From Haloflavibacter putidus (GTDB lineage: Bacteria; Bacteroidota; Bacteroidia; Flavobacteriales; Flavobacteriaceae), in NCBI RefSeq assembly GCF_006546625.1, contig NZ_VIAR01000011.1:1-64000 (forward strand): a DNA stretch of 64,000 nt. Reading direction: 5' to 3'. Below the pieces are notes generated by a model. That model searched no databases and was not told where the DNA came from. It saw only the letters and a program-made list of their open reading frames with translations. Made by a program: the position numbers and the translations under genes. Shown here piece by piece: positions 41,599 through 60,100 of the stretch. Every line of letters starts with the position of its first letter. Position 1 is the stretch's first letter.

Positions 41599-41959
41599 AA
41601 ACTACATTATTAAATAGCAACTTGCAATTTCGTCATTTTAAACTCTTATCCTAAACAAATTACAGCTTGTTTTTAAAAGTTTAAAGACATAACATTTTTT
41701 CGCACTAAATTTCGATTTCAACTTCAATCGCTGGTTGCTAAAGGAAAGGTGATTCTTTTTTTACCACTTTATAAGCCAAATCTTAAGTAACTAAAAAATA
41801 CAAAAAACACATATTGGTGTAATTTAGAAGTTTTAAACTTTCGATACGCTTAACATTAGTAATCTTTTCTTGATAATAAGTTTAGTTACACTTAATAGGC
41901 AGGTAACATCTATAAGGTAAAGGTTAGCTTTCTTTACATCGAAAAGAAAAGTGACCCAA
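41599..41959. other. intergenic region upstream of the TonB receptor
   Basis: AT-rich, no gene. It must hold the promoters of the divergent channel and receptor genes. TAGCTTTC near 41924 is a weak -7-like word for the receptor. No clear Fur-type palindrome is seen. Confidence 0.3.
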
Positions 41960-44752
41960 ATGAGAATTTTAACTTTATTATTTTTAAGTATGTTAACCGG
42001 TGTATCCTACAGTCAAGAAACCGGAGTTTTAAAAGGATCTTTAACAGACAAAGAAACAAACAACCAGCCCTTACCGTTTGCCAATATTGTAATTAAGGGA
42101 ACAAGTAAAGGTGTTACTACAGATTTTGACGGTTTCTACGAAATCAATAATATCGAACCGGGATCCTATACCGTAGTATTTAGTTTTGTAGGCTATGAAA
42201 CCAAAGAGATTCCGGATGTTGTTATCAAAGATGGAGAAACTACCGTCTTTAATGAAAGTTTGGGAAGTAGTGCTGCGGCTCTTGATGCAATAATGCTACA
42301 AGGGGTTGGCAGAAGAGACTCTGAGTCTGCTCTTTTGCTTGAACAGAAAGATGCTATTGAAATTAAAGAAAGCATAGGAGCGCAGGAATTAGTGAAAATG
42401 GGCATTAGCGATGCTGCAACGGCAACTACAAAAATATCTGGAGTTAATAGTAGTGAGGCTTCCGGAGACGTTTTTGTACGTGGTTTAGGAGATCGTTACC
42501 TCTATACCACTTTAAATGGTTTGCCAATTCCTTCTAATGATATTGAAAAAAAGAATATAGATTTGGGGCTATTTCCTACTAGGGTGGTAGAGAGTGTTTC
42601 TATTAGTAAAACGTATTCTCCAAGCTCTTCGGCAGATCAATCTTCCGGGCATATCGATATTACTTCACGCTCCTTAGCTGGCACAGAAGAATTTAAATCC
42701 AGTATGCGTATTGGGGTTAATACTAATGCAATACAATCTGGAGTTGGAAATAATTTTAAGCAAACAGCTAATACGAATGATATTTCTTTAGGCTTTTACT
42801 CAAAAAGCAGGTCTACAGAAAATGCGGTAACCGGGCAAACCTGGAATGCAGGAACTACCAGTATGCCCATAAATTACCGTTATACTTTTAGGGGTGGGAA
42901 AAAAATTGGTGAAAAACTCAAGTTTTTTATTACCGGATCACATCAGGGAGACTTCCAATACAGAGACGGGTTTTTTAAAGAATACCAAAACAACAGGTTG
43001 GTTAAAAATTTTAGTGATGTAGAGCAATTCCGTAAAAATGTAACCACATCTGCTCTGTTAAACATTGATTATAAATTTAATAATAATCACTCTATAAGAG
43101 CGGTGAGTTTACTTGTAAATGAATTATCTGACCGGGTATATGAATCGGGTAGAAATGGCCAAGGCTTTGTTTTTGAAGAGACTGCCGTAGATGATAATTT
43201 GTCCCAATTTATTAGAGATCAAAACACACTACAAACCCGCTTATGGGTAAATCAACTTATAGGAGAACACCAACTAGGAGAGAGAAACGCCTTAAGTTGG
43301 GCAGTAGGTTATACTATGGTAGATGCAGACCAGCCAAACCGAATTAGAAATGAACTGAACTTTTCTCGAAACCAAGAAGATGTTTACCTAGGAGAAGTTG
43401 GAGGATATCAAAATAATAAAAGTTATCAATATATAGATGATACGGAATACAATGGACGCCTTAGCGATGAGTTTAAAGTACTCACCGAAGAAAACAAAAA
43501 ACTTAAATTAACCGCCGGTGGTAATTACCGTAGAAAAGATCGTGATTTTAAAGCTCGCTCTTATGGTTTATCGGAACCGAATAAACGTACCTTAAGCGCT
43601 CCTTCTATAGATAATCTTGATCCTATTTTAAATCAAGAAAACATCGATAATGGGATACTAAATTTTGTAGACTTTCTACCGGAAGACTTATATGATGCTT
43701 ATTTAGAGTCTAGCGGGGGCTTTTTATCGGCAAATTTCCAACTTAATAAGTTTAATTTTAACCTAGGTGCACGTTATCAAAAGGACGATATCTATGTTAA
43801 TTACGATGTAAACAACATTAGTGATGGTACCGTTAACAAAACTTACGATAACATATATCCTACATTTAGTGTCAAATATGCTTTGAATGATAAAAATAAC
43901 TTTAGAGTTGCCGGAAGTAAAACAATCACCTTACCGGAGTTAAAAGAAATTGCTCCATTTGAATATGTACCGGCCAATGGTCAAATTGTAGCAGGTAATC
44001 CGGAAATTGAAGCAAGTACCAATTACAACTTAGATGCTAAATGGGAGTTTTTTCCTTCTAGCGGAGAATTATTATCACTCACCGGGTTTTATAAACAAAT
44101 TCAAGATCCAATTAATCGTGTACAGCGTCGCGGATCGTCAGGTGTATTCTCGTACTTTAACTCTGGTAAAAAAGCAGAAGTATATGGTGTAGAGATCGAC
44201 GCCAATCTTAATTTAATTGAAAAAGATGTTGTTGACAATACCGGTTTCAGCTTAGACTTAAACGCTAATGCTACACGCATGTGGCATAATCAAGATTTAA
44301 AAGAAATCGTTTATAAAAATGGAATGATTGCCAACTCCTTCCGTTACGCAGGAAAATCTGAAGAAGGATTGCAAGGTGCTTCCGACTGGATTTTCAATGT
44401 GGCCTTAAACTTTAGTACGGCCTGGGAAAATGAATTATCGGCAAACCTGTCGGCTAATTACTCTTCAGATAAAATATTTGCACTAGGGCGTGCTGTACAA
44501 GACTTATCCTTAAGTGATGTTTATTACAATGATGCTATTATAGAAAAAGGCTTTGTTACCTTAAACTTGGTAGTAAACCAAGAATTAAACGAAAATTGGA
44601 CTTTACGTTTTACAGGTAAGAACCTATTAAACCCAACTATAGAACGTGAACAAGATGTATTACCCATTAATGGGAATACTGTAGAAACCAATACGGTGCA
44701 ATCGTACACAAAAGGAGCCGTCTTGTCATTTGGGGTAAGTTATAATTTATAA
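41960..44752 (+). CDS. TonB-dependent receptor with CarboxypepD_reg-like N-domain
   Basis: 930 residues; the ATG at 41960 is preferred to a GTG 9 bp earlier as it starts the signal peptide (cut after SYSQ). Residues about 22-105 are a carboxypeptidase-regulatory-like domain (GVLKGSLTDKETNNQPLPFANIVIKGT, GVTTDFDGFYEI, GYETKEI). The plug follows (about 120-235: SGVNSSEASGDVFVRGLGDRYLYTTLNGLPIP, HIDITSRS) and then a barrel ending in an aromatic C-terminus (AVLSFGVSYNL). It imports a ligand across the outer membrane using TonB energy. The next gene, 50 bp on, is a duplicated-domain lipoprotein, so both probably form a receptor-lipoprotein pair; substrate unknown. Confidence 0.92.
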   Translation: MRILTLLFLSMLTGVSYSQETGVLKGSLTDKETNNQPLPFANIVIKGTSKGVTTDFDGFYEINNIEPGSYTVVFSFVGYETKEIPDVVIKDGETTVFNESLGSSAAALDAIMLQGVGRRDSESALLLEQKDAIEIKESIGAQELVKMGISDAATATTKISGVNSSEASGDVFVRGLGDRYLYTTLNGLPIPSNDIEKKNIDLGLFPTRVVESVSISKTYSPSSSADQSSGHIDITSRSLAGTEEFKSSMRIGVNTNAIQSGVGNNFKQTANTNDISLGFYSKSRSTENAVTGQTWNAGTTSMPINYRYTFRGGKKIGEKLKFFITGSHQGDFQYRDGFFKEYQNNRLVKNFSDVEQFRKNVTTSALLNIDYKFNNNHSIRAVSLLVNELSDRVYESGRNGQGFVFEETAVDDNLSQFIRDQNTLQTRLWVNQLIGEHQLGERNALSWAVGYTMVDADQPNRIRNELNFSRNQEDVYLGEVGGYQNNKSYQYIDDTEYNGRLSDEFKVLTEENKKLKLTAGGNYRRKDRDFKARSYGLSEPNKRTLSAPSIDNLDPILNQENIDNGILNFVDFLPEDLYDAYLESSGGFLSANFQLNKFNFNLGARYQKDDIYVNYDVNNISDGTVNKTYDNIYPTFSVKYALNDKNNFRVAGSKTITLPELKEIAPFEYVPANGQIVAGNPEIEASTNYNLDAKWEFFPSSGELLSLTGFYKQIQDPINRVQRRGSSGVFSYFNSGKKAEVYGVEIDANLNLIEKDVVDNTGFSLDLNANATRMWHNQDLKEIVYKNGMIANSFRYAGKSEEGLQGASDWIFNVALNFSTAWENELSANLSANYSSDKIFALGRAVQDLSLSDVYYNDAIIEKGFVTLNLVVNQELNENWTLRFTGKNLLNPTIEREQDVLPINGNTVETNTVQSYTKGAVLSFGVSYNL

Positions 44753-44802
44753 ACAAAAAATTTTATTAATCAATTTTTAATCTTTAACTAAATCAAACAA
44801 AA

Positions 44803-46716
44803 ATGAAAAAATCAATTAAAAAATTATCGATTTTATTTTCGATTTTATTTCTAGCTGTTTTTACAGTTAGTTGTAGCAACGATGATGATTTATCTACTGA
44901 TAATGATTCAACTATAGACGCAGAACTTAACGGGTCTATTACAGAAGACCTAACTTTAGATGCTAACACTACCTACCAATTAACAGGTACATTTAGTGTT
45001 GAAGAAGGGGCTAAATTAACTATCCCGGCAGGAACTAATATTGTAACCGGTACGGGAACTGATGTTTATATGGTAGTACAAAAAGGCGCGCAAATTGATA
45101 TTCAAGGTACTCCTTCAGCACCAGTTCATATGGCTCCAGAAGGAGAAGGTAACTGGGGAGGTTTAGTAATCTTAGGAAATGCTGAAACTACAGCAGGCGT
45201 TAATGCTATTGCAGAAGTTGGAAACTTAATTTATGGAGGTAGCAATAATGCTGACAATTCAGGTTCTATCAAGTATTTAGTAATTGAACAATCTGGAGCC
45301 CAAATAAATACAGATTCGCAGTACAACGGTCTTACACTTTATGCTGTAGGTTCAGGAACGACTATAGAAAACGTAGCTATTCTTGACGGATTAGATGATG
45401 GTCTTGAGTTTTTTGGTGGCGCTGTTAACGTTTCTAACGTATATGTTGAAAACTTAGAAGATGACGCTATAGACTGGACAGAAGGTTGGAATGGTACATT
45501 GACAAATACCTACGTGCTACATACCATTGAAGGATTTTCAACTGCCATAGAAGCTGATGGAACAAACAATAATCCAAACATTATCAACTTTACTGCTGTT
45601 TCTGAAACTGGAGGAACTGCGTTGCAATTTAAAGCTGAATCTGGAGCAATAATCACAGGATTATCATTAAATGGATACGATACTTCTGTAGAAATGGCAG
45701 ATAACGGTCCGCTTACTAATATCTCTATTGATGGAGATGTTGCAGATCCTGCAAATACCTATACAGGTCCTTCTACCGTAAATCCAGCCGATTTTGATTG
45801 GATTGCAAATGCCAACATAGACAATGTATTAAACGGAAGTATTACTGGTAATATAGAATTAGATGCTAACATTACGTACAAACTCCCTGGGGTTCTTAGT
45901 ATTGAAAACGGAGCTTCATTAACTATTCCTGCCGGAACTAACATTCAAACTGGAACAGGAACAGATGTATACATCGCTGTACAAAAAGGAGGTCAGATTT
46001 TTATCGAAGGAGAAGCTTCTAATCCTGTAACTATGGGACCAACAGAAGAAGGTACTTGGGGAGGTTTATTGCTACTTGGTAATGCTACAACAACAGCAGG
46101 AGTAGATGCTACTGCAGAAGTTGGTGGATTAATTTATGGAGGTAGTGATAATCAAGATAACTCAGGGTCTATTAATTACTTGATCATTAGAAAATCTGGA
46201 GCCCAGATCAATACAGATTCGCAGTATAACGGTCTTACACTTTATGCTGTAGGTTCTGGAACTACAATTAGCAATATTGCAATTATAGATGGGCAAGATG
46301 ATGGTATCGAGTTTTTTGGAGGAACCGTAAACGCTTCGAATGTATATGTTGAAAACTTAGAAGATGATGCTATCGACTGGACAGAAGGATGGAGCGGTAC
46401 ATTAACTAACACTTATGTAAAGCATTCTATCACAGGATTCTCTACCGCAATTGAAGCAGACGGAACAAACAACAATCCTACAATTGTAAACTTCACTGCT
46501 GTTTCTCAAGAAGGAGGTACTGCGTTACAGTTTAAAGCACAATCGGGAGCAACAATTACAGGTTTATCATTAAATGGTTATGATACCACTATCGATATGG
46601 CAGACAATGGGCCACTTTCAAACATATCGATAAATGGTAGTATTGCAGATCCTGCTTTAAGCTATGATATTGAAGCAACTGTAAATGTAAACGATTTTAG
46701 CTGGGCAATAAACTAA
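44803..46716 (+). CDS. outer-membrane lipoprotein with two nearly identical beta-helix-like domains
   Basis: 637 residues. Lipoprotein signal with lipobox TVSC (about residue 24) followed by SNDDDLSTDND, an acidic surface-export-type tail after the cysteine. Two domains of about 300 residues follow (about 45-340 and 343-637), each with LNGSIT, TIPAGTNI-TGTGTDVY, WGGL-ILGNA, INTDSQYNGLTLYAVGSGTTI, ENLEDDAIDWTEGW and AIEADGTNNNP. The recurrent short strands and turns suggest a right-handed beta-helix. The DNA of the two domains is also similar at a 900-bp offset, indicating recent duplication. It follows the TonB receptor by 50 bp and is closed by a terminator. Confidence 0.8.
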   Translation: MKKSIKKLSILFSILFLAVFTVSCSNDDDLSTDNDSTIDAELNGSITEDLTLDANTTYQLTGTFSVEEGAKLTIPAGTNIVTGTGTDVYMVVQKGAQIDIQGTPSAPVHMAPEGEGNWGGLVILGNAETTAGVNAIAEVGNLIYGGSNNADNSGSIKYLVIEQSGAQINTDSQYNGLTLYAVGSGTTIENVAILDGLDDGLEFFGGAVNVSNVYVENLEDDAIDWTEGWNGTLTNTYVLHTIEGFSTAIEADGTNNNPNIINFTAVSETGGTALQFKAESGAIITGLSLNGYDTSVEMADNGPLTNISIDGDVADPANTYTGPSTVNPADFDWIANANIDNVLNGSITGNIELDANITYKLPGVLSIENGASLTIPAGTNIQTGTGTDVYIAVQKGGQIFIEGEASNPVTMGPTEEGTWGGLLLLGNATTTAGVDATAEVGGLIYGGSDNQDNSGSINYLIIRKSGAQINTDSQYNGLTLYAVGSGTTISNIAIIDGQDDGIEFFGGTVNASNVYVENLEDDAIDWTEGWSGTLTNTYVKHSITGFSTAIEADGTNNNPTIVNFTAVSQEGGTALQFKAQSGATITGLSLNGYDTTIDMADNGPLSNISINGSIADPALSYDIEATVNVNDFSWAIN

Positions 46717-46740
46717 AGTTAGTTTTTGTTTTCATTTTAG

Positions 46741-46770
46741 TAGGCTGTTCTTAGCGAACAGCCTATTTTA
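46741..46770 (+). terminator. Rho-independent terminator
   Basis: TAGGCTGTTC (46741-46750) pairs perfectly with GAACAGCCTA (46756-46765) around TTAGC, followed by TTTTA. It ends the receptor-lipoprotein transcript and could also serve the convergent UvrA-like gene. Confidence 0.85.
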
Positions 46771-46851: not shown

Positions 46852-49800
46852 TTACTCCAAAACCATTCCTACGCCAATTTTTTGCAGTAAATACAAATTA
46901 TGGTCTATTACCAAAACATCGTTTTTTTTACTTAGTTTTTGTAAAATAGTCAGCAGCAAATCTATGTCTGCATAATGCAAACCGGTACTTGGTTCGTCTA
47001 AAATATAAAGCGCGCTGGTGGTTTTGTTTTGTAGCCAATTCAGTAGCAATAAACGTTGTTTTTCTCCAGACGAAAGCGATTGCACCGGCTGCTCTAAAGT
47101 AAGATGCCCCAGTCCAATTTCTTCCAATTCATTTAAAAACGGAAAATCTTTAGTGGGTAAATTGTTTTCTATCAACCAGGTGTTTAATTCTGTGACATTT
47201 AAAATCAGAATTTCTGCAATATTTTTTCCGTTTACGGTAGATGCTAAAATTTTTGGTAGATAACGTTTGCCTTTGCATACTTCGCAGGTTTCAATACTAT
47301 TGGCAGTTACATCTAAACTGGTTTCTATAAAACCTTTTCCGTTACAATTTGGGCACTGACTGCTTTTTGTTTTATATGAGAAAGCTTTGGCTTTTAGTTT
47401 TGTTTTGTCAGCAAAAATCTTACAGATTTCTTTTAGTAGGTTTAAATAATCTACCAGCAAAGTGTTGGTGTGGCTGCGTAATTTTTTAGTTTCAAAATAA
47501 TGAGCTTCTGTATATCTTTTCGGAAAATTTATAGCGGCGCAATTTATAGCTTGCCCGCTCTTAATACTTGGTAATAAAATCTCTTTTACCAAAGTGGTTT
47601 TTCCAACGCCAGATTTCCCACTTATAGCAGTTATACCGCTTACGGGTATTTTTAAATGCTCTTTTACCAAGCTGTGTTTGGCAATTTTTTCTACTACAAT
47701 TTGTGTTTTTGCTTTTTGGAATTCTAATTTGTGAGTTGGTTTTTTTAAGTACGGATGGCAAGCTGCTTCTTGTAAAAAATCTTGCGGTTTGCCCTCATAA
47801 GTAATATAACCACCCAAATTACCGGCTTGTGGTCCTATCTGAACCAATTTGTCTGCTGCCAGAATAATTTCTTTGTTGTGCTCAATTACTACTACAGTAT
47901 TTCCTTTTTGAATAAGTTCTTGTAAGATTGCCAACAAATCCGGAATGTTATCTTGCGATAAGCCCGCCGAAGGTTCATCTAACAAATAGGTAATACCTTT
48001 TAACGGACTGTTTAATTGTTTGATCAACTCTACCCGCTGATTTTCTCCTCCGGATAATGTGGGCGATTTTCGGTTGAGTTGTAGGTAATCTAAATGCAGT
48101 TGTTTGGCTCTTTGAATCGTGTTGCTTAAATGCGTTTTAATTTTATCCAGTAATTTCCCGTCGATATCTTGTTTGTTAGCATTTGCGCTTAAAAAATGAC
48201 CCAATGTTTTAAAATTCAGCGCTTTTATTTCATTTATAGATTTCCCCGCTATTGTATAAGATAACCGCTCCGGTTTTAAGCCACTTCCTTGACAATTTTC
48301 ACATTTTCTGTAAGAAAATAGCGCAGTAAGTTGTTTGGTGTTTTTGTTTTTTCTAGTTTTAAAATATTCCTCTTGTAAATAGTTAAAAAGACCTTCCCAT
48401 TTCATCGATAAAGCTTGTGTGCCTTTCCTGGTTTTTGTTGTGTACTCCCAGTTTGCTTCCCATACTTTTTCTCCTGTTCCGGAAAGCAAAACCTCTTTTT
48501 GCGCTGCGTTTAATTCCCCGAAAGGGGTTTCCAAATCAAAACCATAATCTTGCCCTACTTTTTTTAAGACGGCCATATGTTTACCGGCCGGATCGCCATA
48601 ATAACCAATTACTTTGTTATGGGCAAAAAGTCCGTTGGTGATGCTTTTCTCTGCATCTAACACCAATTTGTTGAGGTCTGGCAAAAGTTCTTGTCCAATG
48701 CCTTCGCAGATCGTACATTTCCCCAATTCGTGGTTGTTAGAAAAATGACTGGCAGATAAATCTTCTCCTTCAGACTGTGCTTTTCGCGAAAAAGCAAAAC
48801 GTAAAATCTTATCAATTCCGGTTTGTTTGGCAACATCGGTTCGCTGCGAGTAGTTTTTTTGCTTTCGGGTAATGCAAATAGTTGGTGTAAGGCCTTCTAT
48901 ATAATCTACTTCAAACTGAAAATTTATACCTACGCGCGATTGTTGGTAGCTCGAAAATTGCTTGGTCATTTCTTGCAAGCCAAAACCGTGTAAAGTATCT
49001 ATTACCAAAGAAGATTTTCCCGAACCCGAAATGCCCGTAACCGCTGTAAAAGAATTTTTGGGCAAATCTAAATCAAGGTCTTTTAGATGGTGTGTTCGCG
49101 CATTTTTAATAGAAATAGTATTTCGCTGCTGCGGATTTTCTTGTTTGAACTTAAAATTCTCGGTTTCTGCGGAATTATCTACCAAAATATCTGCATTCGC
49201 CTGAAAAAGACTATGGTTTTCAAAACAAATAATACCTGCTGTCTCTAGTTTTAATTGGTGCAAGGCAGTTAATAATTCTTTTACGTTTTGCTGGTGCAAG
49301 CCAATGCTAGGTTCTTCAAGGAATAAAAGCGTTTTCTTTGATTTTTTAGCGAAATGTTTGGTAAGTTTTATGCGCTGCGCTTCTCCGCCAGATAAAGTGT
49401 TAGAAGGTTGGCCCAGTTTGATGTACCCCAAGCCTAATTGCAGCATTAATGCCAAGGTTTCTTTAATTTTCTTTTCAGGAGAGAAAAAAGTATGCGCTTC
49501 TTGGATGCTGAGGTTATAAATTTCGGCAATGTTTTTATCTTTCCAATGCACGCGCAAAACTTCCTCTTTAAAACGCTTGCCGTTGCAGGTAGGACAAACT
49601 TGATTAATCGTGCCCAGAGCGCTCATAGAAAGGCTTATAACTCCGGCACCTTCGCAAGCCGGACATCTGCCGGTTTTGTTGTTAAAAGAAAAGGCGCTCT
49701 TGGTTAGTTTTAAAGCTTTTGCTTCTGGTGTTTTTGCCAGAAGGTTACGTATAAAGTTTGCTAAACCCGTATAAGTCGCCGGATTACTGCGTGGGGTTTT

Positions 49801-51348
49801 TCCTATAGGTTGATCGTTTACACTAAGAACAGTCCATTCTTTTTTTTCGCAAAAAGCAGTAATATCTTCTAATAATTGCGGTGTTTTTTTACTTAGAACG
49901 CAGAGTTTATGTAGAACGGGCTGGAAATCTTCAGTAGCTACTTTTTTGAATTTGTTTTTTGGTACGGAAGTATTTTTTGCTTCTTGAAGAGCCAATTGCG
50001 TTGGACTGTTAAGATGTTTTGCTTTTAAAAAATCTTGGAGTTTTCCGTTAAAAACCACTTCGCCGCCATTAATTCCTGCTTTTGGTCCTAATTCTACTAT
50101 CCAATCTGCCGCTTTTATAAAGTCTAAATCATGCTCAACAACAATTACCGTATTTCCTCTTTTAATCAATCGGTTTAAAATATGTAGCAGATATTTTTGA
50201 TAATTTGCAGGTAATCCAATAGAAGGTTCGTCAAAAACATATAAAATGCCTTGCAATTTGCTGTTTACTTGATTGATGAGTTTGATGCGCTGCCCATCTC
50301 CCGACGATATTTGGGTGCTGGGAGTATTTAAACGGTAATCTGCCATTCCCAGTCTTATCAAGTCATATAATTTGGGGCGTAACTTTTGTACCAATTCTTT
50401 TTCCCCGCTAAGGTAATTTTGCGTCTCTAAGCGTTTATATAGTTGGATTAAAGGAAGTTTCATCCAAGCGTGAAAGTTAAATCCTTTCCATTTATACTTT
50501 AGATTTTCTGCTTTTATGCGCGCCCCTTTGCAGCTGGGACAAATCTTGGAACTGGCAAATTTTAGAATATTCGGATTTCTGTCGCGTCTTAAAATGTCTT
50601 CCATCACGGGAAGCATTCCTTTATAAAAACCTTCTTCGCGTGGTTTTGCTTTAATACCTTTCCACCTAAGCCGGGATTCTAAGCCGTGTTTACCAAAGAA
50701 AACCTTAGTTCTATCACTTCCGTGTAAAACGACATCTTTTTGTGCGGGAGTTAGTGCTTTCCACGGGATATCTACATTAAAGTCGTGCGCCTTACATACT
50801 TTGTTTAACTCTTCTACAGTTATTTGCGAATAAACAATGTAACCGTTGGGTAGGGTAGTGGTAATGGCACCTTCTCGAAGCGTTTTATTTTCATCTCCTA
50901 TTAATTTGTTAAGATCAATATATTCTGCTTCGCCAATTCCCCTACAAGTTGTACAAGCACCTTTGGGATGGTTAAAAGAAAAAAGCGATTTGCTCATTGT
51001 TTCCTTGGCGGAATAGCGCGCAAATAAAATTCGGAAATAGGTGTTAATTTCTGAAAGCGTACCAAAAGTAGTTTTTATAGATTGGAAACGTTTGGACTGT
51101 TCTACTTTAATAACCGGTGGCAAATTTTGTATAGAATCTACGTTGGCAGTTGGAATTACTTGTGCATTTTGTTGGTTGTATGCCGGCAAACTTTCTAAAA
51201 AATACCGGTAACCTTCGTTTGCAATTACATCCATAGCCAAAGAAGATTTTCCCGAACCGGATAAGCCGGTAAGTACAATTAATTGATTTTCAGGAATACG
51301 AATATCAATATTTTTGAGGTTGTTTTGGTGTGCATTTAGAATTTGCAT
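46852..51348 (-). CDS. tandem-fused double UvrA-like ABC ATPase
   Basis: 1498 residues against about 940 for UvrA. It contains four ABC halves, i.e. two UvrA-like units fused. Unit 1 (1 to about 740): Walker A GLSGSGKSS (28-36), Zn motif CTTCRGIG and CPSCKGAR, signature ISSGDGQR (about 346) with FDEPSIGL; then a half with DQPIGKTPRSNPATYTG, zinc motifs CPACEGAG/CPTCNGKR, signature LSGGEAQR (about 649) and LEEPSIGL but no Walker A. Unit 2 (about 745-1498): Walker A GISGSGKSS (about 768), CTICEGIG/CENCQGSG, signature LSGGENQR (about 1096); then Walker A GKSGVGKTT (about 1241), CPNCNGKG/CEVCKGKR, signature LSSGEKQR (about 1421), but no TPRSNPATY motif. It likely binds DNA as one chain; no uvrB or uvrC is adjacent. 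Confidence 0.9.
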   Translation of the reverse strand: MQILNAHQNNLKNIDIRIPENQLIVLTGLSGSGKSSLAMDVIANEGYRYFLESLPAYNQQNAQVIPTANVDSIQNLPPVIKVEQSKRFQSIKTTFGTLSEINTYFRILFARYSAKETMSKSLFSFNHPKGACTTCRGIGEAEYIDLNKLIGDENKTLREGAITTTLPNGYIVYSQITVEELNKVCKAHDFNVDIPWKALTPAQKDVVLHGSDRTKVFFGKHGLESRLRWKGIKAKPREEGFYKGMLPVMEDILRRDRNPNILKFASSKICPSCKGARIKAENLKYKWKGFNFHAWMKLPLIQLYKRLETQNYLSGEKELVQKLRPKLYDLIRLGMADYRLNTPSTQISSGDGQRIKLINQVNSKLQGILYVFDEPSIGLPANYQKYLLHILNRLIKRGNTVIVVEHDLDFIKAADWIVELGPKAGINGGEVVFNGKLQDFLKAKHLNSPTQLALQEAKNTSVPKNKFKKVATEDFQPVLHKLCVLSKKTPQLLEDITAFCEKKEWTVLSVNDQPIGKTPRSNPATYTGLANFIRNLLAKTPEAKALKLTKSAFSFNNKTGRCPACEGAGVISLSMSALGTINQVCPTCNGKRFKEEVLRVHWKDKNIAEIYNLSIQEAHTFFSPEKKIKETLALMLQLGLGYIKLGQPSNTLSGGEAQRIKLTKHFAKKSKKTLLFLEEPSIGLHQQNVKELLTALHQLKLETAGIICFENHSLFQANADILVDNSAETENFKFKQENPQQRNTISIKNARTHHLKDLDLDLPKNSFTAVTGISGSGKSSLVIDTLHGFGLQEMTKQFSSYQQSRVGINFQFEVDYIEGLTPTICITRKQKNYSQRTDVAKQTGIDKILRFAFSRKAQSEGEDLSASHFSNNHELGKCTICEGIGQELLPDLNKLVLDAEKSITNGLFAHNKVIGYYGDPAGKHMAVLKKVGQDYGFDLETPFGELNAAQKEVLLSGTGEKVWEANWEYTTKTRKGTQALSMKWEGLFNYLQEEYFKTRKNKNTKQLTALFSYRKCENCQGSGLKPERLSYTIAGKSINEIKALNFKTLGHFLSANANKQDIDGKLLDKIKTHLSNTIQRAKQLHLDYLQLNRKSPTLSGGENQRVELIKQLNSPLKGITYLLDEPSAGLSQDNIPDLLAILQELIQKGNTVVVIEHNKEIILAADKLVQIGPQAGNLGGYITYEGKPQDFLQEAACHPYLKKPTHKLEFQKAKTQIVVEKIAKHSLVKEHLKIPVSGITAISGKSGVGKTTLVKEILLPSIKSGQAINCAAINFPKRYTEAHYFETKKLRSHTNTLLVDYLNLLKEICKIFADKTKLKAKAFSYKTKSSQCPNCNGKGFIETSLDVTANSIETCEVCKGKRYLPKILASTVNGKNIAEILILNVTELNTWLIENNLPTKDFPFLNELEEIGLGHLTLEQPVQSLSSGEKQRLLLLNWLQNKTTSALYILDEPSTGLHYADIDLLLTILQKLSKKNDVLVIDHNLYLLQKIGVGMVLE

Positions 51349-52095: not shown

Positions 52096-52587
52096 TTATT
52101 CCCCTTCGTTTTCCAAACGGTAGATAATCTTTTTCATCTGAGCGATCTCTCTTTTTTGCGCTTCGATAATTTCTTTAGCCAATTTTTTGGTTTCGGGATC
52201 TTTTAGGTCTGCACGTTTGCTGGTAAGAATAGCAATGGAGTGGTGGGGAATCATCGCTTTCATATAAAGAACATCTCCAATTATGGGGCGTTGTGCCCTA
52301 ACTAAACCTAATGCCGAGATAAACAAGACAAGACTACCAAGATAAATAGCTATATTTTTCATCTTGTTTTTATACATTTTAAGCATAAGAGACAACATAA
52401 TTACCGCCATGGCAGAAATACCCAAACAGGTCATATAGAGGCGGGTAAGGCTAAAATATACGTGATCAAACTCATAGGTATTCATATACATCGTGATGTA
52501 CATCGCTATAAACGATAAACCAAGCATTAGAAAAAATCTACCGTAATTACTGCCGTTTTTTTTATGTTTATTATTTTCTGAATTCAT
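52096..52587 (-). CDS. DUF305-type membrane protein of the copper island
   Basis: 163 residues. Three hydrophobic segments (about 18-36, 48-66 and 76-94) precede a C-terminal domain with the DUF305 hallmark MIPHHSIAILTSKRADLKDPETKKLAKEIIEAQKREIAQMK (methionine and two histidines). DUF305 proteins such as CopM bind copper in the periplasm. It is the last gene of the copper group on this strand, 30 bp after the DUF3347 lipoprotein, and so probably co-transcribed. Confidence 0.8.
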   Translation of the reverse strand: MNSENNKHKKNGSNYGRFFLMLGLSFIAMYITMYMNTYEFDHVYFSLTRLYMTCLGISAMAVIMLSLMLKMYKNKMKNIAIYLGSLVLFISALGLVRAQRPIIGDVLYMKAMIPHHSIAILTSKRADLKDPETKKLAKEIIEAQKREIAQMKKIIYRLENEGE

Positions 52588-52617
52588 TTTACTTAGTTTT
52601 TGGTTGGTTACTATATT

Positions 52618-53166
52618 TTACTTTTCAATCGTTTTCTTTACGGAACCGCATCGCAGCATTTTATCGCCAAAATATGGATTATTTATTTCCTCGATATCAG
52701 CATACCAATATGCCCCCTCATTATTGAAAGCCATAGGGCAGAATTTTTTATAAATAGTTCCTCCGGAAAGTGCATCTTCAAACATATTGCCGGCCAGTTC
52801 CGTAAAGTTTGAAAAAAGTTCGCGTTGCTTTTCAAGATCATTGGTGTTTGCCAATTGCTTGGCAACGGCTTTCATCTCTGCACGTTCTTCAGAAAAAGAT
52901 TCAGCCATACTTTTGGCAGCGTCTTTCGCCTTATTGGCATCGGCGTTTGTCAATGCTATTTTAATCTCTAGGTAGTTATGCCATATTTTTCCGGTCATAC
53001 CATCTTTAAAAGCTTGATCGGCGATATCTGCAGTATTTTTTTCTGCTTTTTTTACTTCTTTTGGAGTGTCTATCTCTACCTCTTGTTTTGCTTTATTATC
53101 TAAGCAAGAGGTTGCTACAACCGCGGTGAAAAGAATTACTCCAAAGTTTAAAATACTATTTTTCAT
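52618..53166 (-). CDS. DUF3347 lipoprotein, copper-island member
   Basis: 182 residues with a lipobox VATSC (about residue 21) and an acidic KEV-rich spacer. The DUF3347 domain follows, ending in the ligand-rich stretch YKKFCPMAFNNEGAYWYADIEEINNPYFGDKMLRCGS, in which Cys-Pro-Met and Met-x-x-Cys could hold Cu(I). The same domain ends the CusB-type adaptor at 54025, with HCPMVNNNQGADWLSL and MLNCGD. It is likely an outer- or inner-membrane-bound metal chaperone that feeds the pump. Confidence 0.85.
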   Translation of the reverse strand: MKNSILNFGVILFTAVVATSCLDNKAKQEVEIDTPKEVKKAEKNTADIADQAFKDGMTGKIWHNYLEIKIALTNADANKAKDAAKSMAESFSEERAEMKAVAKQLANTNDLEKQRELFSNFTELAGNMFEDALSGGTIYKKFCPMAFNNEGAYWYADIEEINNPYFGDKMLRCGSVKKTIEK

Positions 53167-53210
53167 TTTTTAATTGATTTTATTTTTGTATATCCGTTTA
53201 GTGTCAAGTG

Positions 53211-53323
53211 AATTAAATAATAGTTCTGATGTCGCGTCCAGCCTTTCGACTTTGATCAAGACAGGCTAAAGTCGAGACGCTTTTGTTTAACCTCTCGACT
53301 GCGCTCTCCCGAAGTTTCGGGAG
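53211..53323 (+). repeat. dispersed repeat with perfect hairpin
   Basis: 53211-53268 matches the reverse complement of 39570-39627 (53 of 58). Further on, CTCCCGAA (53306-53313) pairs with TTCGGGAG (53316-53323) with a two-base spacer, inside a CTCGACTGCGCTCTCCCGAA context of the REP-like family. It separates the AraC gene from the DUF3347 gene, so it may end the upstream minus-strand transcript. Confidence 0.7.
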
Positions 53324-53420
53324 TGACAAAAGCTACTTAAAGGAATGAAAGCGGATAATCAAATTTATTTCTAAATTACTGTTTAATAAAAAATTATGTT
53401 GTTATAATTTGGTTAAGCAT

Positions 53421-53990
53421 CTATAAAATTTGGTCTAAAGGATTTCTAAAATTTTTCTCTAAAGTTTTGTATTCGGTTAAATTTATTCCTGTTTCCGCTT
53501 TAAATTGCCGGGAAAGATGGTTTACACTGCTATAATCTAATAGCTGACTTATTTGCGTGAAATTATATTGTTTTGATTGAATAAGCTCTTTTGTTTTTTC
53601 TATTTTAAGCTTTATAAAATATTTCTCCAACGTGGTATTTTCGATATGAGAAAACGTCCTGCTTAAACGGGAATACTCATAATTGGTTTCTCTTGATAAA
53701 TAACTGGAAAGTGTGCCGTTTTTTTGAATGGGTAGGTTTTCCAAAAGACGTATAAGATTTAGTTTTACATTTTCGACTAAAATTTTATCGGTGCTTTCCA
53801 GTAATTCAAAATCATTATCAAGAAGAACTTTTTTCAACTTTTTAGCATCTTCAGTTTTATCCTTGCTTTTATAAACAACTCGGCCTAATTCTACTTTTAT
53901 TACTGCCACCCCAGCTTCAAGCAGCTCGTTTTTTACTACTTTAATACACCGGTTACAAACCATGTTTTTGATAAAGACTTCAACTAGCAT
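53421..53990 (-). CDS. AraC-type regulator with N-terminal CxxC (HMA-like) segment
   Basis: 189 residues from the ATG at 53990. An upstream start at 54050 would overlap the adaptor gene by 26 bp and add residues outside the domain, so the shorter form is preferred. Residues about 1-65 (FIKNMVCNRCIKVVKNELLEAG... VIKVELGRVVY) look like a heavy-metal-associated fold with the ligand pair C-N-R-C. The C-terminal about 100 residues are the AraC double helix-turn-helix (FSHIENTTLEKYFIKLKIEKTKELIQSKQYNFTQISQLLDYSSVNHLSRQFKAETGI). By design it should sense metal and control this pump cluster; direct evidence is absent. Confidence 0.85.
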   Translation of the reverse strand: MLVEVFIKNMVCNRCIKVVKNELLEAGVAVIKVELGRVVYKSKDKTEDAKKLKKVLLDNDFELLESTDKILVENVKLNLIRLLENLPIQKNGTLSSYLSRETNYEYSRLSRTFSHIENTTLEKYFIKLKIEKTKELIQSKQYNFTQISQLLDYSSVNHLSRQFKAETGINLTEYKTLEKNFRNPLDQIL

Positions 53991-54024
53991 AAATTTATAT
54001 GGTTTTAATAAACTTTCAATCTTT

Positions 54025-55737
54025 CTATAATTCTCTTTGGGTGTCGCCACAATTCAACATTTTCTCGCCGTAATAAGGATTTTTAATTTCCGAACTTAAA
54101 CTTAGCCAATCTGCGCCTTGGTTGTTATTAACCATTGGGCAATGTTGTAAATAAATGGGCTTATCTAAGTTTTTCATATTAGAAGCAAAAGCAATTATAT
54201 TTTCGGATAGTACTATAAAATGATCCCGCTGATTTTCTATATTATCATTTTTGGAAATAGCTTTTAGCATACTTTCAATTTTGTTTAAATGCTGCATTTC
54301 CATAGCGCCCAAATTGAAAGTTTTTAAGCTTTTAAGTCGCTCAAACATATTGTTTGCTAAAGTTTTTGTTTGCTCTATGTTGCTGTCTACAAATGCATCT
54401 TTTAATTCGAAATAAGTTGCCAAAACTGTGGTAAAATCTTTTTGAAATGTCTCCGGTAATTCCATTTGCATTTTTGAAACATCTTCTTTCGCCGTAGGTT
54501 GATTCATCATAGATTTTTTACCCTGTAATTGGGCAGCCGCATCTACGGTAAAGGTTCCGTTGGTTACAATTACATCGCCGTCTTTTAAACCGCTGGTTAT
54601 TGAATAATTTTCGCCATTTCTGTTACCTAATCTTACTTCTCGCATTTCAAAAACAGGATGGTTAGGATTTGTTTTAACGTAAACCAAAGAACGTTCTCCC
54701 GTCCACATTACCGCACTTGCCGGGATTAAAAGTTGCTGCTCGCCAGCAATTTCAGCTACTTTTACCTTACCGGTTACAAACATACCCGGCTTTAGTAAAT
54801 TGTCTTTATTTTTTATAGTTGCCCTTACTGTTACTGTCCTGGTTTGTGTGTTTAAAACCGGATCTATAAAAGATATAGTGGCATCAAATTCTTTATTAGG
54901 ATAAGCGTTTGCCGTAATTTTTATATTTTGCCCTTCTTCAAATTCGGCAATTTGATTTTCGTATGCATCAAACGCTGCCCAAAGCGTGTTTAGATTATTT
55001 AATTTTAAGATAGGTTGTCCTTTTTTTACATAATCTCCTTCAGATGTCATTTTTTCGGAAACCGTTCCCGAAACAGTAGCATATATAGGAAAATTCTCGC
55101 GTACTTCTCCCGAGGCTTCAATACGTTTAATTTGGCTTTCTGAAAGTTTCCAGAGCTTTAATTTGTTCCGTACAGATTTATAAAGCGCCGGCTGACTTTC
55201 TTTAAGTCTTGCAGTGGTAAGAAGTTCTTGTTGGGCTGCAACTAAATCTGGGGAGTAAATAGTTGCTAAAAGTTGTCCTTTTTGTACTTCTTGTCCTTCA
55301 AAATTTATATTAAGGCGTTCTATTCTACCATCAAAATAACTGGCTTGAACCGTATTTGCTTCTTCGTTTTCTACAATTTTTCCAGATAACGATATACCGT
55401 TGTCACTTTTACCAGAGCTATTACCAACTACACTGGTCTGAATATTTGCCAATGCCATTGCATTTTTGGTCATTTTAATTTCGTTGGCAGAAAGGCCATC
55501 TGCTTCAGAGCCTGCAGGAATAAGCTCCATTCCGCAAATAGGGCAGTCGCCGGGTTCCGGTTGCATAATTTGTGGATGCATAGAGCAAGTCCATAGTTGT
55601 TCAGTAGCAACTTCTTTAGAATGCTTGTGATTATCTTTGTTGTGTGCATCGCCGGTTGCATCGCCACCAAAAAGCAGAAAGCCCGCGACCAACCCCACTA
55701 TTAAGGCCAAGATTATATAAATGCTGTTCTTTTTCAT
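54025..55737 (-). CDS. cusB: CusB-type periplasmic adaptor with heavy-metal-binding domain and DUF3347 end
   Basis: 570 residues. An N-terminal hydrophobic anchor (about 6-24), a histidine-rich stretch (DAHNKDNHKHSKE), then the heavy-metal-binding domain W-T-C-S-M-H-P with CPICGMELIP (about 48-75). The body is the membrane-fusion fold: a VQASYFDGRIERL barrel-lipoyl piece, a helical hairpin (VAAQQELLTTARLKESQ), GTVSEKMTSEGDYVKKGQPI and barrel domain. The last about 130 residues are a DUF3347 domain with HCPMVNNN and MLNCGD. It links CusA to the outer membrane channel and hands over Cu(I)/Ag(I). The E. coli CusF-like role may be filled by the DUF3347 end. Confidence 0.92.
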   Translation of the reverse strand: MKKNSIYIILALIVGLVAGFLLFGGDATGDAHNKDNHKHSKEVATEQLWTCSMHPQIMQPEPGDCPICGMELIPAGSEADGLSANEIKMTKNAMALANIQTSVVGNSSGKSDNGISLSGKIVENEEANTVQASYFDGRIERLNINFEGQEVQKGQLLATIYSPDLVAAQQELLTTARLKESQPALYKSVRNKLKLWKLSESQIKRIEASGEVRENFPIYATVSGTVSEKMTSEGDYVKKGQPILKLNNLNTLWAAFDAYENQIAEFEEGQNIKITANAYPNKEFDATISFIDPVLNTQTRTVTVRATIKNKDNLLKPGMFVTGKVKVAEIAGEQQLLIPASAVMWTGERSLVYVKTNPNHPVFEMREVRLGNRNGENYSITSGLKDGDVIVTNGTFTVDAAAQLQGKKSMMNQPTAKEDVSKMQMELPETFQKDFTTVLATYFELKDAFVDSNIEQTKTLANNMFERLKSLKTFNLGAMEMQHLNKIESMLKAISKNDNIENQRDHFIVLSENIIAFASNMKNLDKPIYLQHCPMVNNNQGADWLSLSSEIKNPYYGEKMLNCGDTQREL

Positions 55738-55870
55738 TTGATTATGTCTTATTTAATATTCTGTTTTTATATTTTTTCACTTCCGTAAAACTCTCTTTCT
55801 TGTTTTTATATATTTTTCACTTTACGGAATTCTTTTGTGTTTTTTATATTATATAATTTGCTTACCGAAT

Positions 55871-57112
55871 TTAATTGGTTGTGTAATAAGCAATTATAGC
55901 CAATTGTGTATAATAGGCTTGAACGGCTTCTATTAGCTTAAGGCCAAATTCTAACTGCAATTCTTGAATATCCAATACATCGTTAAAGTTTATTGTACCT
56001 GTTTCATAACTTTTAAGCAGTATATCTTCTGCATCTTTAGCTTGTTTTAAATTTTCTTTTTGCGTTTGAACACGAATACGGGCTACATTTCTACTCTTGA
56101 CGGCTGTTTGCAATTGTGTTAATAAATTATTCTCAACCGCTTCTTCTTGCTTGTCCAGCTCGTCGTAGCGTAATTTGTTTTGCCGGGCAACAGATTTGTA
56201 TTTTTTGTTGAATAGGGGAATGGAAACCGAAACCATAGGCATAAACATATCGGGCATTTCCGTAAAGTACATATATTCCATACCCACGCCAAGTTGCGGC
56301 CCGCTTTCCTTTTGGTTAAGTGCATCTGCTTGGGAGACAATTTTATTGAGTTGGTTAATTTTTTTTATTTTAGGATGAAGCCGAAGCTTTTCAAAATCTA
56401 TTTCTGTATCTTTTTTAGGAATTATCAAACTATCTACAATAGCGATATTTGCATCTTTTTCTCTGTTTAGTAATTTGTTAAAAACCGTACGCTCTGCTTC
56501 ATAGTTTTGCGCTAACACCTGTTTTCTTTCCCGAAGTTTGTTTTGACGAATTTGTAAACGCAAAACCGCTACGGCCGAAGCATTTCCTACCTCTACAGAG
56601 GTTAAGGCCATTTGTTCATAAGCCTGCAAAAGCTCAATATTGGCATCTACAACTTCTTGTTTTTGAATTATTTCATAAAGACGGTAATACGACAGCGATA
56701 AATCTTTTACAATTTTTCGTTTAGCGATTTCAATTTCTAAGAAATCGGCATCAGCCAAAGCTGTAGAATAATTTTCGCGAGCTGAAAGGGTTCCAAACCA
56801 AGGAAACATTTGCATTACAGAGAATTCTCCTTGCCACATCATAGGCATATCTTCTTTACTAAACATGTATCCGCCTGAAAACTTGGTGTTTGGTAAGGAT
56901 TTACTTGCCGTTATTTTTTCTGCGGAAATAGCATATTGTTTTTTAATTGCTTGAATATCTGGGTTGTTATTTACCGCTTTTTCTATATAATTATTTAAGT
57001 GCTGCCCATTTGTATTCCAGCTAAAAAACAGGAGCATAACTAGCAATACTACTCCTGTAGGAAAGCAGGTTTTCTGTAATCGAAATGCATTTATTAATTT
57101 TACTTTTATCAT
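55871..57112 (-). CDS. cusC: TolC-family outer membrane channel (CusC-like)
   Basis: 413 residues, signal peptide (cut after TNGQ near residue 37), then two repeats of the OEP helix-strand pattern (NNPDIQAIKKQYAISAEKITASKSLPNTKFSGGY, and LHPKIKKINQLNKIVSQADALNQKESGPQLGVGMEYMY). It forms a trimeric outer membrane and periplasmic tunnel. It starts 2 bp after the RND pump's stop and is followed by the adaptor gene after a 133-bp gap, a standard Cu/Ag efflux order. No lipobox is seen, unlike E. coli CusC. Confidence 0.88.
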   Translation of the reverse strand: MIKVKLINAFRLQKTCFPTGVVLLVMLLFFSWNTNGQHLNNYIEKAVNNNPDIQAIKKQYAISAEKITASKSLPNTKFSGGYMFSKEDMPMMWQGEFSVMQMFPWFGTLSARENYSTALADADFLEIEIAKRKIVKDLSLSYYRLYEIIQKQEVVDANIELLQAYEQMALTSVEVGNASAVAVLRLQIRQNKLRERKQVLAQNYEAERTVFNKLLNREKDANIAIVDSLIIPKKDTEIDFEKLRLHPKIKKINQLNKIVSQADALNQKESGPQLGVGMEYMYFTEMPDMFMPMVSVSIPLFNKKYKSVARQNKLRYDELDKQEEAVENNLLTQLQTAVKSRNVARIRVQTQKENLKQAKDAEDILLKSYETGTINFNDVLDIQELQLEFGLKLIEAVQAYYTQLAIIAYYTTN

Positions 57113-57114
57113 TT

Positions 57115-60100
57115 CTACTTTTCTTTAAGCGTTTTTAATCGTCTTTTTAATTTTGCTTCTCTCGTCCAACTATACAATACGGGAACTACAAAAAGAGTAA
57201 TTAAGGCAATCACCATTCCGCCAAAGCTAGGTATTGCCATAGGAATCATAATATCACTTCCTCGGCCCGTGGAAGTTAGAATAGGAAGAAGCGCAAGAAT
57301 AGTGGTGGCAGTGGTCATCAAACAAGGGCGTATACGTTTGATTCCTGCTTCTACAACAGAGGCGCGAACTTCATTTATATTTTCCGGTTTATTTTTATCG
57401 AAAGTTTGGGTAAGATAGGTTGCCATTACCACGCCATCGTCTGTAGCAATTCCAAAAAGAGCAATAAAACCTACCCAAACTGCAACACTTAAGTTAATAG
57501 TGTGCATTTGAAATAAATCTCTTAGGTTTTCACCGAAGAAAGAAAAGTTTAAGAACCAATCTTGTCCGTAAAACCAAATCATTAAAAAGCCACCGGCAAA
57601 AGCTACGGCAATACTAGAAAACACCATTAACGAAGTAGCTACCGAACGGAATTGGAAATAGAGAATCAAAAAGATAATGGCCAGTGCCAAAGGAATAATA
57701 ACAGATAGTGTTTTTTCGGCACGTAATTGATTTTCGTAGGTTCCGGTAAACTGGTAATTTATTCCCTTTGGCACCGTTAATTCACCACTTTCTATTTTAT
57801 CTTTAATTAGAGCTTGGGCGTTTTCTACCACATCTACCTCTGCATAAGTATCCAGTTTATCAAACAAAACATAACCTACTAAAAAGGTATCTTCACTCTT
57901 GATAACTTGCGGTCCTTGCTCATACCTGATTTCTACCAATTCTCCTAATGGCACCGGACTGCCTTTTTCAACCGGCACGTATATATCTTTAATGTCGTCT
58001 GGATTGGCACGTAATTCTCGCGGATAACGCACTCTTACGCCATAACGCTCTCTGCCTTCTACGGTTTGTGTTAATGGCATACCGCCCACAGCAACCTGAA
58101 GTACTTGTTGCACATCTTCTATAGAAATACCGTATCTGGCAAGACGTTCTCGTTTAATATCTATTAAAAGATAGGGTTTGCCTACAATTCTATCTGCAAA
58201 AACAGCTTCTTTTTTTACGCCTTCTGCTTGTTTTAGAATATCTTCCAGCTGCATTCCAAAAGCTTCAATTTCTCGTAAATTTTGTCCTTTTACTTTAATT
58301 CCCATAGGCGCGCGCATACCGGTTTGCAGCATAACCAAACGAGTTTCTATAGGTTGTAGTTTTGGCGCTGAGGTTATTCCGGGGAGCTTGGTTGCGTTTA
58401 CAATTTCGTTCCAAATATCATCTGGCGATTGTATTTTTGGTCGCCAATTTCGGTAAAATTCGCCATCTTCGTCTGCTATTAGATCTTGGTTTTCCACACG
58501 AAAAGGATCTTCAATTTCTGCATCCTTATAACTATCCTCTTCCGTCACATCGCTATTAGGATTAACAACCAGGTTTCCGTTTTTCAGAATAAACAAGCCA
58601 TCTTCGTTTACTTTATAGCGTTGCCGATTGCCATTGTCATTCAGCATATATTCTGATTTATACTGAATAATATTTTCATACATAGATAAAGGTGCTGGAT
58701 CTAAAGCAGATTCTGTACGGCCGGCTTTACCTACCACGGTCTTAATTTCCGGAATATTGGCAACAGCCATATCCAGTTGCTGCAAGACTCTTTTATTTTC
58801 TTCAATGCCTGCGTGTGGTAAAGAAGTTGGCATAAGCAAAAAGGAACCTTCGTTTAAAGAAGGCATAAATTCTTTGCCCGTATTTTGCATAATTAAAACT
58901 CCACAAACTACAATAGCGGTAGGTAAGGAAAGAAATAACAGTTTGTTTCTAAGCGCCCAACCTAAAATTCTGGTATAGTAATTTTGAAACAACCAGAATA
59001 TTCCTGTTAAACCAAAACAAATTAACCCGACAAAAAGCAGATTCCAGAAGATACTTTTATCTACTCCTAGCGGTCGCCAATATTCTGCAAGTAAAAAGAT
59101 GATTGCTAAAGCGGAAATAAAAATGTTTATGCTATTAGCGCGTTTTTTGGTTAGTTGATATTTATCGGAAATTTTAGCAGCAATTTTATCGTCTCTTAAA
59201 AGTGCTGTAATTCCAAAAGCAAGTAGTAATAAGCCCAACCAGTAACCAAATATTATTGCTGTTATTCCTATTAAAAACAGTAAAGCATTGATAAGAAGTT
59301 TACTTGTTCTTCTAATATTTTTTTTACGGAATAGATAAGAGGCGAAAGGAGGAATTAAAAATAAAGCTATTATTAACGCTGCAACTAAAGCCATGGTTTT
59401 GGTAAAAGCTAAAGGTCTAAACAATTTCCCTTCGGCCCCGACCATAGTAAACACAGGAATAAAACTGATAATGGTAGTAAGTACCGCCGTAAGTATAGCT
59501 CCCGAAACTTCGGCAGTGGCATTGTAAACCACGGTATTCATGGTTTGTCTTTTACCGGTTTTTATAAAACGCGCATCTTCTTCGTCCAGATGCCTAATAA
59601 TATTTTCGCAAAGAATGACCCCGACATCTACCATTGTACCAATAGCAATGGCAATCCCGGATAAAGCCACAATATTGGCATCTACATTAAAAAACTTCAT
59701 TGCAATAAAGACCATTAATACCGCAACGGGCAACAGACCAGAGATTAAAACCGAAGCTCTTAAATTGAATACCATTACGATAATAACAAAAATGGTAATA
59801 AGAATTTCTAAGCTTAGCGCTTCGTCCAGTGTTCCTAAGGTTTCTTGAATAAGTTCTGTACGATCATAAAACGGTACGATGGTAAGTTGCGAAGTACGGC
59901 CATCTGATAGTTTTTTAGAAGGTAAACCTGCTTTGAGCGCTTCTATTTGATCTTTTACATTATTAATAACCTCCATTGGGTTTGCGCCGTGGCGGGCAAC
60001 CACAACCCCGCCAACTACTTCTGCTCCTTCTTTATCTAAAATGCCGCGTCTAGGTGCCGGTCCTAAGCCTACTTTTGCAACATCTTTAATTTGGATAGCG

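Follow-up and report, generated by a model that had tools for sequence, protein, structure and literature searches.

Haloflavibacter putidus has genes for two ordinary UvrAs (of 947 and 929 aa) and for a single complete UvrB. It also encodes a third, longer UvrA-like gene, which lies in the window analysed here (a stretch of 64,000 nt, positions 1 to 64,000 of contig NZ_VIAR01000011.1) and carries two UvrA-like units in one chain, each degenerate in a different way. What kind of protein is this, and is it the product of an accident? The gene is a single intact frame with an ATG start and no internal stops upon translation of the window:

46852..51348, minus strand: tandem UvrA-like gene, 1498 aa, stop codon included (from the ORF and its orthologues)
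49135..51348, minus strand: unit 1, aa 1-738; predicted UvrA fold that lacks the UvrB-binding domain and has a dead distal ATP site (alignment and AlphaFold model)
46855..49134, minus strand: unit 2, aa 739-1498; predicted UvrA fold that lacks the UvrB-binding domain and retains the Walker, signature and H-loop motifs at both ATP sites (alignment and AlphaFold model)

Motif scans of the chain find four ABC signatures (at aa 347, 652, 1098 and 1425), as originally noted, and eight CxxC pairs; Walker A occurs exactly three times (aa 28, 772 and 1244) and TPRSNPATY once (aa 518). Two stretches match the insertion domain (Pfam UvrA_DNA-bind), and each unit has two zinc modules. All 16 zinc cysteines are conserved in the 64 aligned orthologues on which the motif counts are based (64/64). 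The two ordinary UvrAs, both of class I and both with a UvrB-binding domain, lie about 30 kb apart, at 131-134 kb and 161-164 kb of contig C22 (genome G000).

Scanning one genome each of 84,980 species with a unit-1-specific stretch gives 67 loci, 66 of which are close relatives in Bacteroidota. A complete tandem gene of 1493-1557 aa is present at 62 of the 67 loci, in named Bacteroidota of about 18 genera; of the other five, three hold fragments cut off at contig edges, one a broken copy and one an unrelated UvrA of the ordinary kind. Of 199 sampled genomes of the family, 5 (H. putidus counted) have a full-length tandem gene, at 63-74% identity, the order-level sample adds one further genome with a full-length relative, and 8 of 16 genomes of the same genus have the gene. 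Hosts include Mesonia, Salegentibacter, Christiangramia, Psychroflexus, Zunongwangia, Sinomicrobium, Brumimicrobium, Marivirga and Echinicola; the host genera are mostly marine or saline. In the gene tree, the closest relatives of the H. putidus gene are from Mesonia. The tree separates members of Marivirga, likewise those of Salegentibacter, and mixes orders, which suggests horizontal transfer of the tandem gene. A match in Planctomycetes (L111) was rejected as a tandem relative, being an ordinary UvrA of 940 aa. The broken gene, in Lacinutrix neustonica (L072, 9932-13275), consists of separate frames of 511 and 574 aa.

In UvrA, the proximal ATP site is built from ATP-binding domain I and signature II, and the distal site from ATP-binding domain II and signature I; adenine stacks on a Gln before the proximal signature and on an Arg before the distal signature (PMC6486640). 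The corresponding elements of unit 1 are as follows:

51244..51267, minus strand: Walker A of NBD-I, GLSGSGKS, aa 28-35; proximal site 1, invariant in 64/64
50563..50928, minus strand: insertion (DNA-binding) domain, aa ~141-262; Pfam UvrA_DNA-bind, mean pairwise identity 0.82, 54 of 122 columns invariant
50287..50310, minus strand: degenerate signature I, ISSGDGQR, aa 347-354; half of dead distal site 1, with I347, S348, G350 and D351 in 64/64 and S349 in 63/64
49882..49905, minus strand: remnant of the lost Walker A of NBD-II, LCVLSKKT, aa 482-489; glycine loop gone, K488 in 63/64 and T489 in 61/64
49765..49815, minus strand: DQPIGKTPRSNPATYTG of NBD-II, aa 512-528; Q-loop/DNA-contact stretch kept
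49372..49395, minus strand: signature II, LSGGEAQR, aa 652-659; pairs with Walker A-I in proximal site 1, 64/64
49297..49329, minus strand: Walker B of NBD-II, LLFLEEPSIGL, aa 674-684; Asp replaced by Glu, E678 in 62/64

The loss in unit 1 covers the whole distal ATP site of the published scheme. Specifically, the Walker B Asp is Glu in 62 of the 64 orthologues, the H-loop His is Asn in 59 (a His usually comes next), signature I reads ISSGD in 63 and ISAGD in one, and the adenine-stacking Arg is Thr or Ser in all 64 (T342 in the H. putidus chain). The proximal site is unaltered, with GLSGSGKSS, LSGGEAQR and Q647 each present in 64/64 and the H-loop motif retained. The original observation that the second half of unit 1 lacks Walker A yet has TPRSNPATY holds for the family as a whole: both features are fixed, with a P-loop in 0/64 and TPRSNP(A/S)T in 64/64. 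AlphaFold still predicts the strand (482-485) and the helix (490-503) that flank the lost P-loop, and therefore the NBD-II domain probably persists without its nucleotide loop.

E. coli UvrA requires for DNA binding an arginine quadruple that includes R712 (PMC3025350; the numbering of R712 was verified against the E. coli K-12 gene), and this residue aligns with R534 of unit 1, present in 64/64. The four-arginine set is only partly retained in unit 1, namely R712 as R534, while R722 is mostly Lys, R724 mostly Leu and R730 mostly Ala.

In unit 2, the corresponding elements are:

49012..49035, minus strand: Walker A of NBD-I, GISGSGKS, aa 772-779; proximal site 2, with G772, K778 and S779 in 64/64
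48325..48693, minus strand: insertion (DNA-binding) domain, aa ~886-1008; Pfam UvrA_DNA-bind at 891-1005, mean identity 0.62
48034..48057, minus strand: signature I, LSGGENQR, aa 1098-1105; belongs to distal site 2, with R1093 retained
47596..47619, minus strand: Walker A of NBD-II, GKSGVGKT, aa 1244-1251; distal site 2, with G1244, G1249, K1250 and T1251 in 64/64
47437..47499, minus strand: replacement of DQ-PIG-TPRSNPATYTG, aa 1284-1304; E1286 at the Q-loop Gln position, Y1284 in 63/64, F1285 and E1286 in 64/64
47053..47076, minus strand: signature II, LSSGEKQR, aa 1425-1432; belongs to proximal site 2, with Q1420 retained

The glycines and the lysine of both Walker A motifs, R1093 (distal), Q1420 (proximal) and the H-loop histidines are all invariant in unit 2 (64/64). 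Its second half had been described as having a Walker A and no TPRSNPATY, and the orthologues agree, with the second P-loop in 64/64 and TPRSNP(A/S)T in 0/64. Both Q-loop glutamines are replaced, by R828 in 62/64 and by E1286 in 64/64; these changes may impair coupling at the sites of unit 2. The two insertion domains also differ, that of unit 1 being among the most conserved parts of the chain (0.82) and that of unit 2 among the less conserved (0.62).

The losses in the two units had been called complementary. It is true that each unit carries fixed losses of its own; the term itself needs softening: what unit 1 has lost is a whole ATP site, and what unit 2 has lost is a DNA-contact/Q-loop stretch, which in some single-unit class II UvrAs is partly eroded too. 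Single class II UvrAs of 749-755 aa (L030, L036, L037 and L038) keep DQS and have an eroded TPRSNPATY stretch, e.g. DQSLFAASARSNLLTYL. The Q-loop DQ, absent from unit 2, is kept in the sampled single class II UvrAs. Since the same losses are found in all 64 orthologues, they are far from chance or a one-strain accident.

The AlphaFold models of unit 1 and unit 2 have pLDDT of 81.1 and 87.6, respectively. The best PDB matches of the unit 1 model are UvrA chains, with Z of 36.6 to 3zqj_A and 33.0 to Ecm16, and both unit models score UvrA chains well above all else. Overlay on Ecm16 gives RMSD of 2.5 Å for unit 1 (556 residues) and 3.3 Å for unit 2 (582 residues). From these models, a UvrA fold can be assigned to each unit with good confidence.

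In the alignment, the UvrB-binding domain (~120 residues) is skipped by both units. Consistently, Pfam UvrA_inter is not among the matches listed for the tandem chain and is present in both ordinary UvrAs of the genome. Ecm16 and UvrA2 are without a UvrB-binding domain, and Ecm16 is independent of UvrB (PMC10192343, PMC5128194). The absence of this domain therefore places the tandem protein in the company of Ecm16, Deinococcus UvrA2 and other class II UvrAs. Of the class I features, the UvrB-binding domain is absent and unit 1 does not have two complete ATP sites. Of the class II features, a predicted UvrA fold without UvrB-binding domain, an insertion domain and two zinc modules are present in each unit; in place of a single unit and four ATP sites there are two unlike units per chain and three P-loops. 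The chosen root leaves both units on the class II side of the tree, on very long stems and with modest support. The tandem protein passes the cut-off of TIGR00630 (1090 versus 729.8 bits), and automated annotation will therefore probably name it excinuclease subunit A.

The surroundings of the gene vary between species. No conserved operon was found, the commonest neighbour cluster occurring in 9 of about 63 loci and at varying places. Because no biosynthetic, resistance or repair neighbour is conserved, the context gives no indication of a drug or repair role. No close relatives of the tandem gene were found in phage or viral records; carriage of close relatives by phages or plasmids was rejected, as the phage and plasmid matches are below 60% identity and fall at ordinary UvrAs. 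Promoter and terminator scans gave sites no more numerous than in shuffled sequence. On one side of the gene, window positions 41773-46767 (a TonB-receptor-like gene and a 637-aa two-repeat lipoprotein-like gene) are 97.3% identical in a congener (G748). The tandem UvrA gene is 81.6% identical in G748 and is there not adjacent to the counterpart of 41773-46767, which indicates that the neighbouring segments have different histories. On the other side, window positions 52096-60915 hold heavy-metal-type genes (DUF305, two DUF3347, an AraC-type regulator, a CusB-like protein and a CusA-like ORF); in G748, the tandem UvrA gene has no such block beside it.

Taken together, we consider it on balance probable that the protein is a covalent asymmetric class II-type UvrA pseudo-dimer that acts without UvrB on drug-bound or damaged DNA. 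That the pseudo-dimer is obligate and has three ATP sites and just one reading half, with one unit reading the DNA and the other powering the damage or drug sensor, is plausible, if just short of probable. Unit 1 would be mainly the DNA-reading half, having the conserved insertion domain, the DNA-contact stretch of signature domain II and the proximal ATP site. Unit 2, which has the motifs of the proximal and distal sites and from which the second DNA-contact stretch is gone, would be mainly the ATP-cycling half. The units would dock like a UvrA dimer, and the ATP sites, judging by their motifs, would work as named, so that the chain would run three of them rather than four. The chain would recognise distorted or ligand-bound DNA, and ATP turnover would leave the site cleared or shielded with no hand-over to UvrB/UvrC, as with Ecm16 on echinomycin-DNA; its role would then be tolerance of DNA-binding compounds or DNA damage. 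A division of labour as in a covalent UvrA dimer had been proposed for this gene, and two units in one chain with fixed, differing degeneration (64/64) are consistent with it.

Several other explanations bear on this reading. The tandem protein might be an accessory factor of nucleotide excision repair that finds lesions and passes them to the ordinary UvrA and UvrB, or that competes with the class I UvrA and thereby tunes repair. Ordinary UvrA and UvrB are indeed encoded in the same genome, and class II UvrAs are reported to affect UV and chemical tolerance (PMC5128194). However, neither unit has a UvrB-binding domain, no uvr genes lie nearby in the window, the neighbours are not conserved, and most relatives do without the tandem gene, as the sample of 199 family genomes shows; we therefore regard such a role as unlikely. 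We hold a further arrangement to be similarly improbable, namely that tandem chains dimerise into a four-unit assembly in which like pairs with like, the fusion serving only to fix a 1:1 supply. UvrA, UvrA2 and Ecm16 are all homodimers (PMC10192343, PMC5128194) and nothing in the sequence speaks against this assembly, but a chain left with a single DNA-contact stretch and a single dead distal site would most simply make one asymmetric pair.

The remaining alternatives carry far less weight. A role outside DNA repair, i.e., anti-phage defence or another DNA transaction, would fit the patchy distribution and probable horizontal spread, and the PADLOC model mad3 matches the tandem protein. The mad3 match is stronger for E. 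coli UvrA (342 versus 283 bits) and no defence neighbours recur, and we consider such a role very improbable; the PADLOC assignment to anti-phage defence was rejected because the mad3 match is generic to UvrA. A chance fusion, a frameshift product or a decaying duplicate can point to the single broken copy in L. neustonica, against 62 complete genes of about 1500 aa from many genera, in which the 16 zinc cysteines and the retained ATP motifs hardly vary despite deep divergence. A frameshift fusion in this strain would predict two separate genes in relatives; instead, 62 of the 67 loci have the full-length tandem gene. Chance fusion, refuted by loci across species, is therefore rejected, and we give this explanation next to no credence.

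How the asymmetric chain arose can be approached from the tree, which took in no NF001885-type sequence. Units 1 and 2 form one clade each, each on a long stem. They join with SH-aLRT 94 when both are included; because the stems are 2.4 and 3.2 changes per site, this may reflect long-branch attraction. With one unit left out, the other keeps its deep place. The C-terminal ~40 residues of other UvrAs are missing from both units, a shared loss that possibly favours tandem duplication over fusion of two different UvrAs, although it could be convergent.

In a symmetric UvrA dimer, each mutation alters two sites together, and the roles of the ATP sites in damage search are therefore hard to assign. 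A natural asymmetric UvrA, from which one distal site and one DNA-contact stretch are gone, provides a test system ready for use. If the proposed mechanism is true, the pseudo-dimer naturally separates roles that are mixed in the symmetric dimer. Public annotation hides this distinct protein, since the TIGR00630 name is that of an ordinary excinuclease subunit, although the protein lacks the UvrB-binding domain on which the excinuclease depends.

Our searches of the literature, with most subscription papers outside their reach, found no description of a tandem or fused UvrA of this family. The class II UvrAs (Ecm16, PDB 7sh1; Deinococcus UvrA2, PDB 2vf7; DrrC and related self-resistance proteins) share with it the UvrA fold, the insertion domain, two zinc modules per unit and the lack of a UvrB-binding domain. 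They are homodimers of one unit, each protomer carrying two ATP sites, whereas the tandem protein has two unlike units, one of which (unit 1) is without a distal site; either unit is only ~30-33% identical to the single class II proteins sampled. With the canonical class I UvrAs (E. coli, Bacillus and the 947- and 929-aa proteins of the host), it shares the overall fold, the zinc modules and the signature and Walker motifs.

Two UvrA units per chain are likewise expected, from the model length, in the proteins of NCBIfam NF001885 (1809 positions, cut-off 3054 bits), the Chlamydia-type tandem UvrA and the only tandem UvrA model that came up in the analysis. The H. putidus tandem protein is of a different type: it scores 701 bits, below the 3054-bit cut-off, with unit 2 aligned to the model's first half. 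Residue 928 of the chain, the 190th of unit 2, corresponds to NF001885 position 315, so that the model has ~125 extra residues before the insertion domain, as would be expected if the Chlamydia-type protein keeps the UvrB-binding domain.

Asymmetric ABC proteins, e.g. CFTR and TAP, also have paired ATP sites, one of them without catalytic residues and usually still able to bind ATP. Those proteins are membrane transporters; unit 1 of the tandem UvrA has instead lost the P-loop itself.
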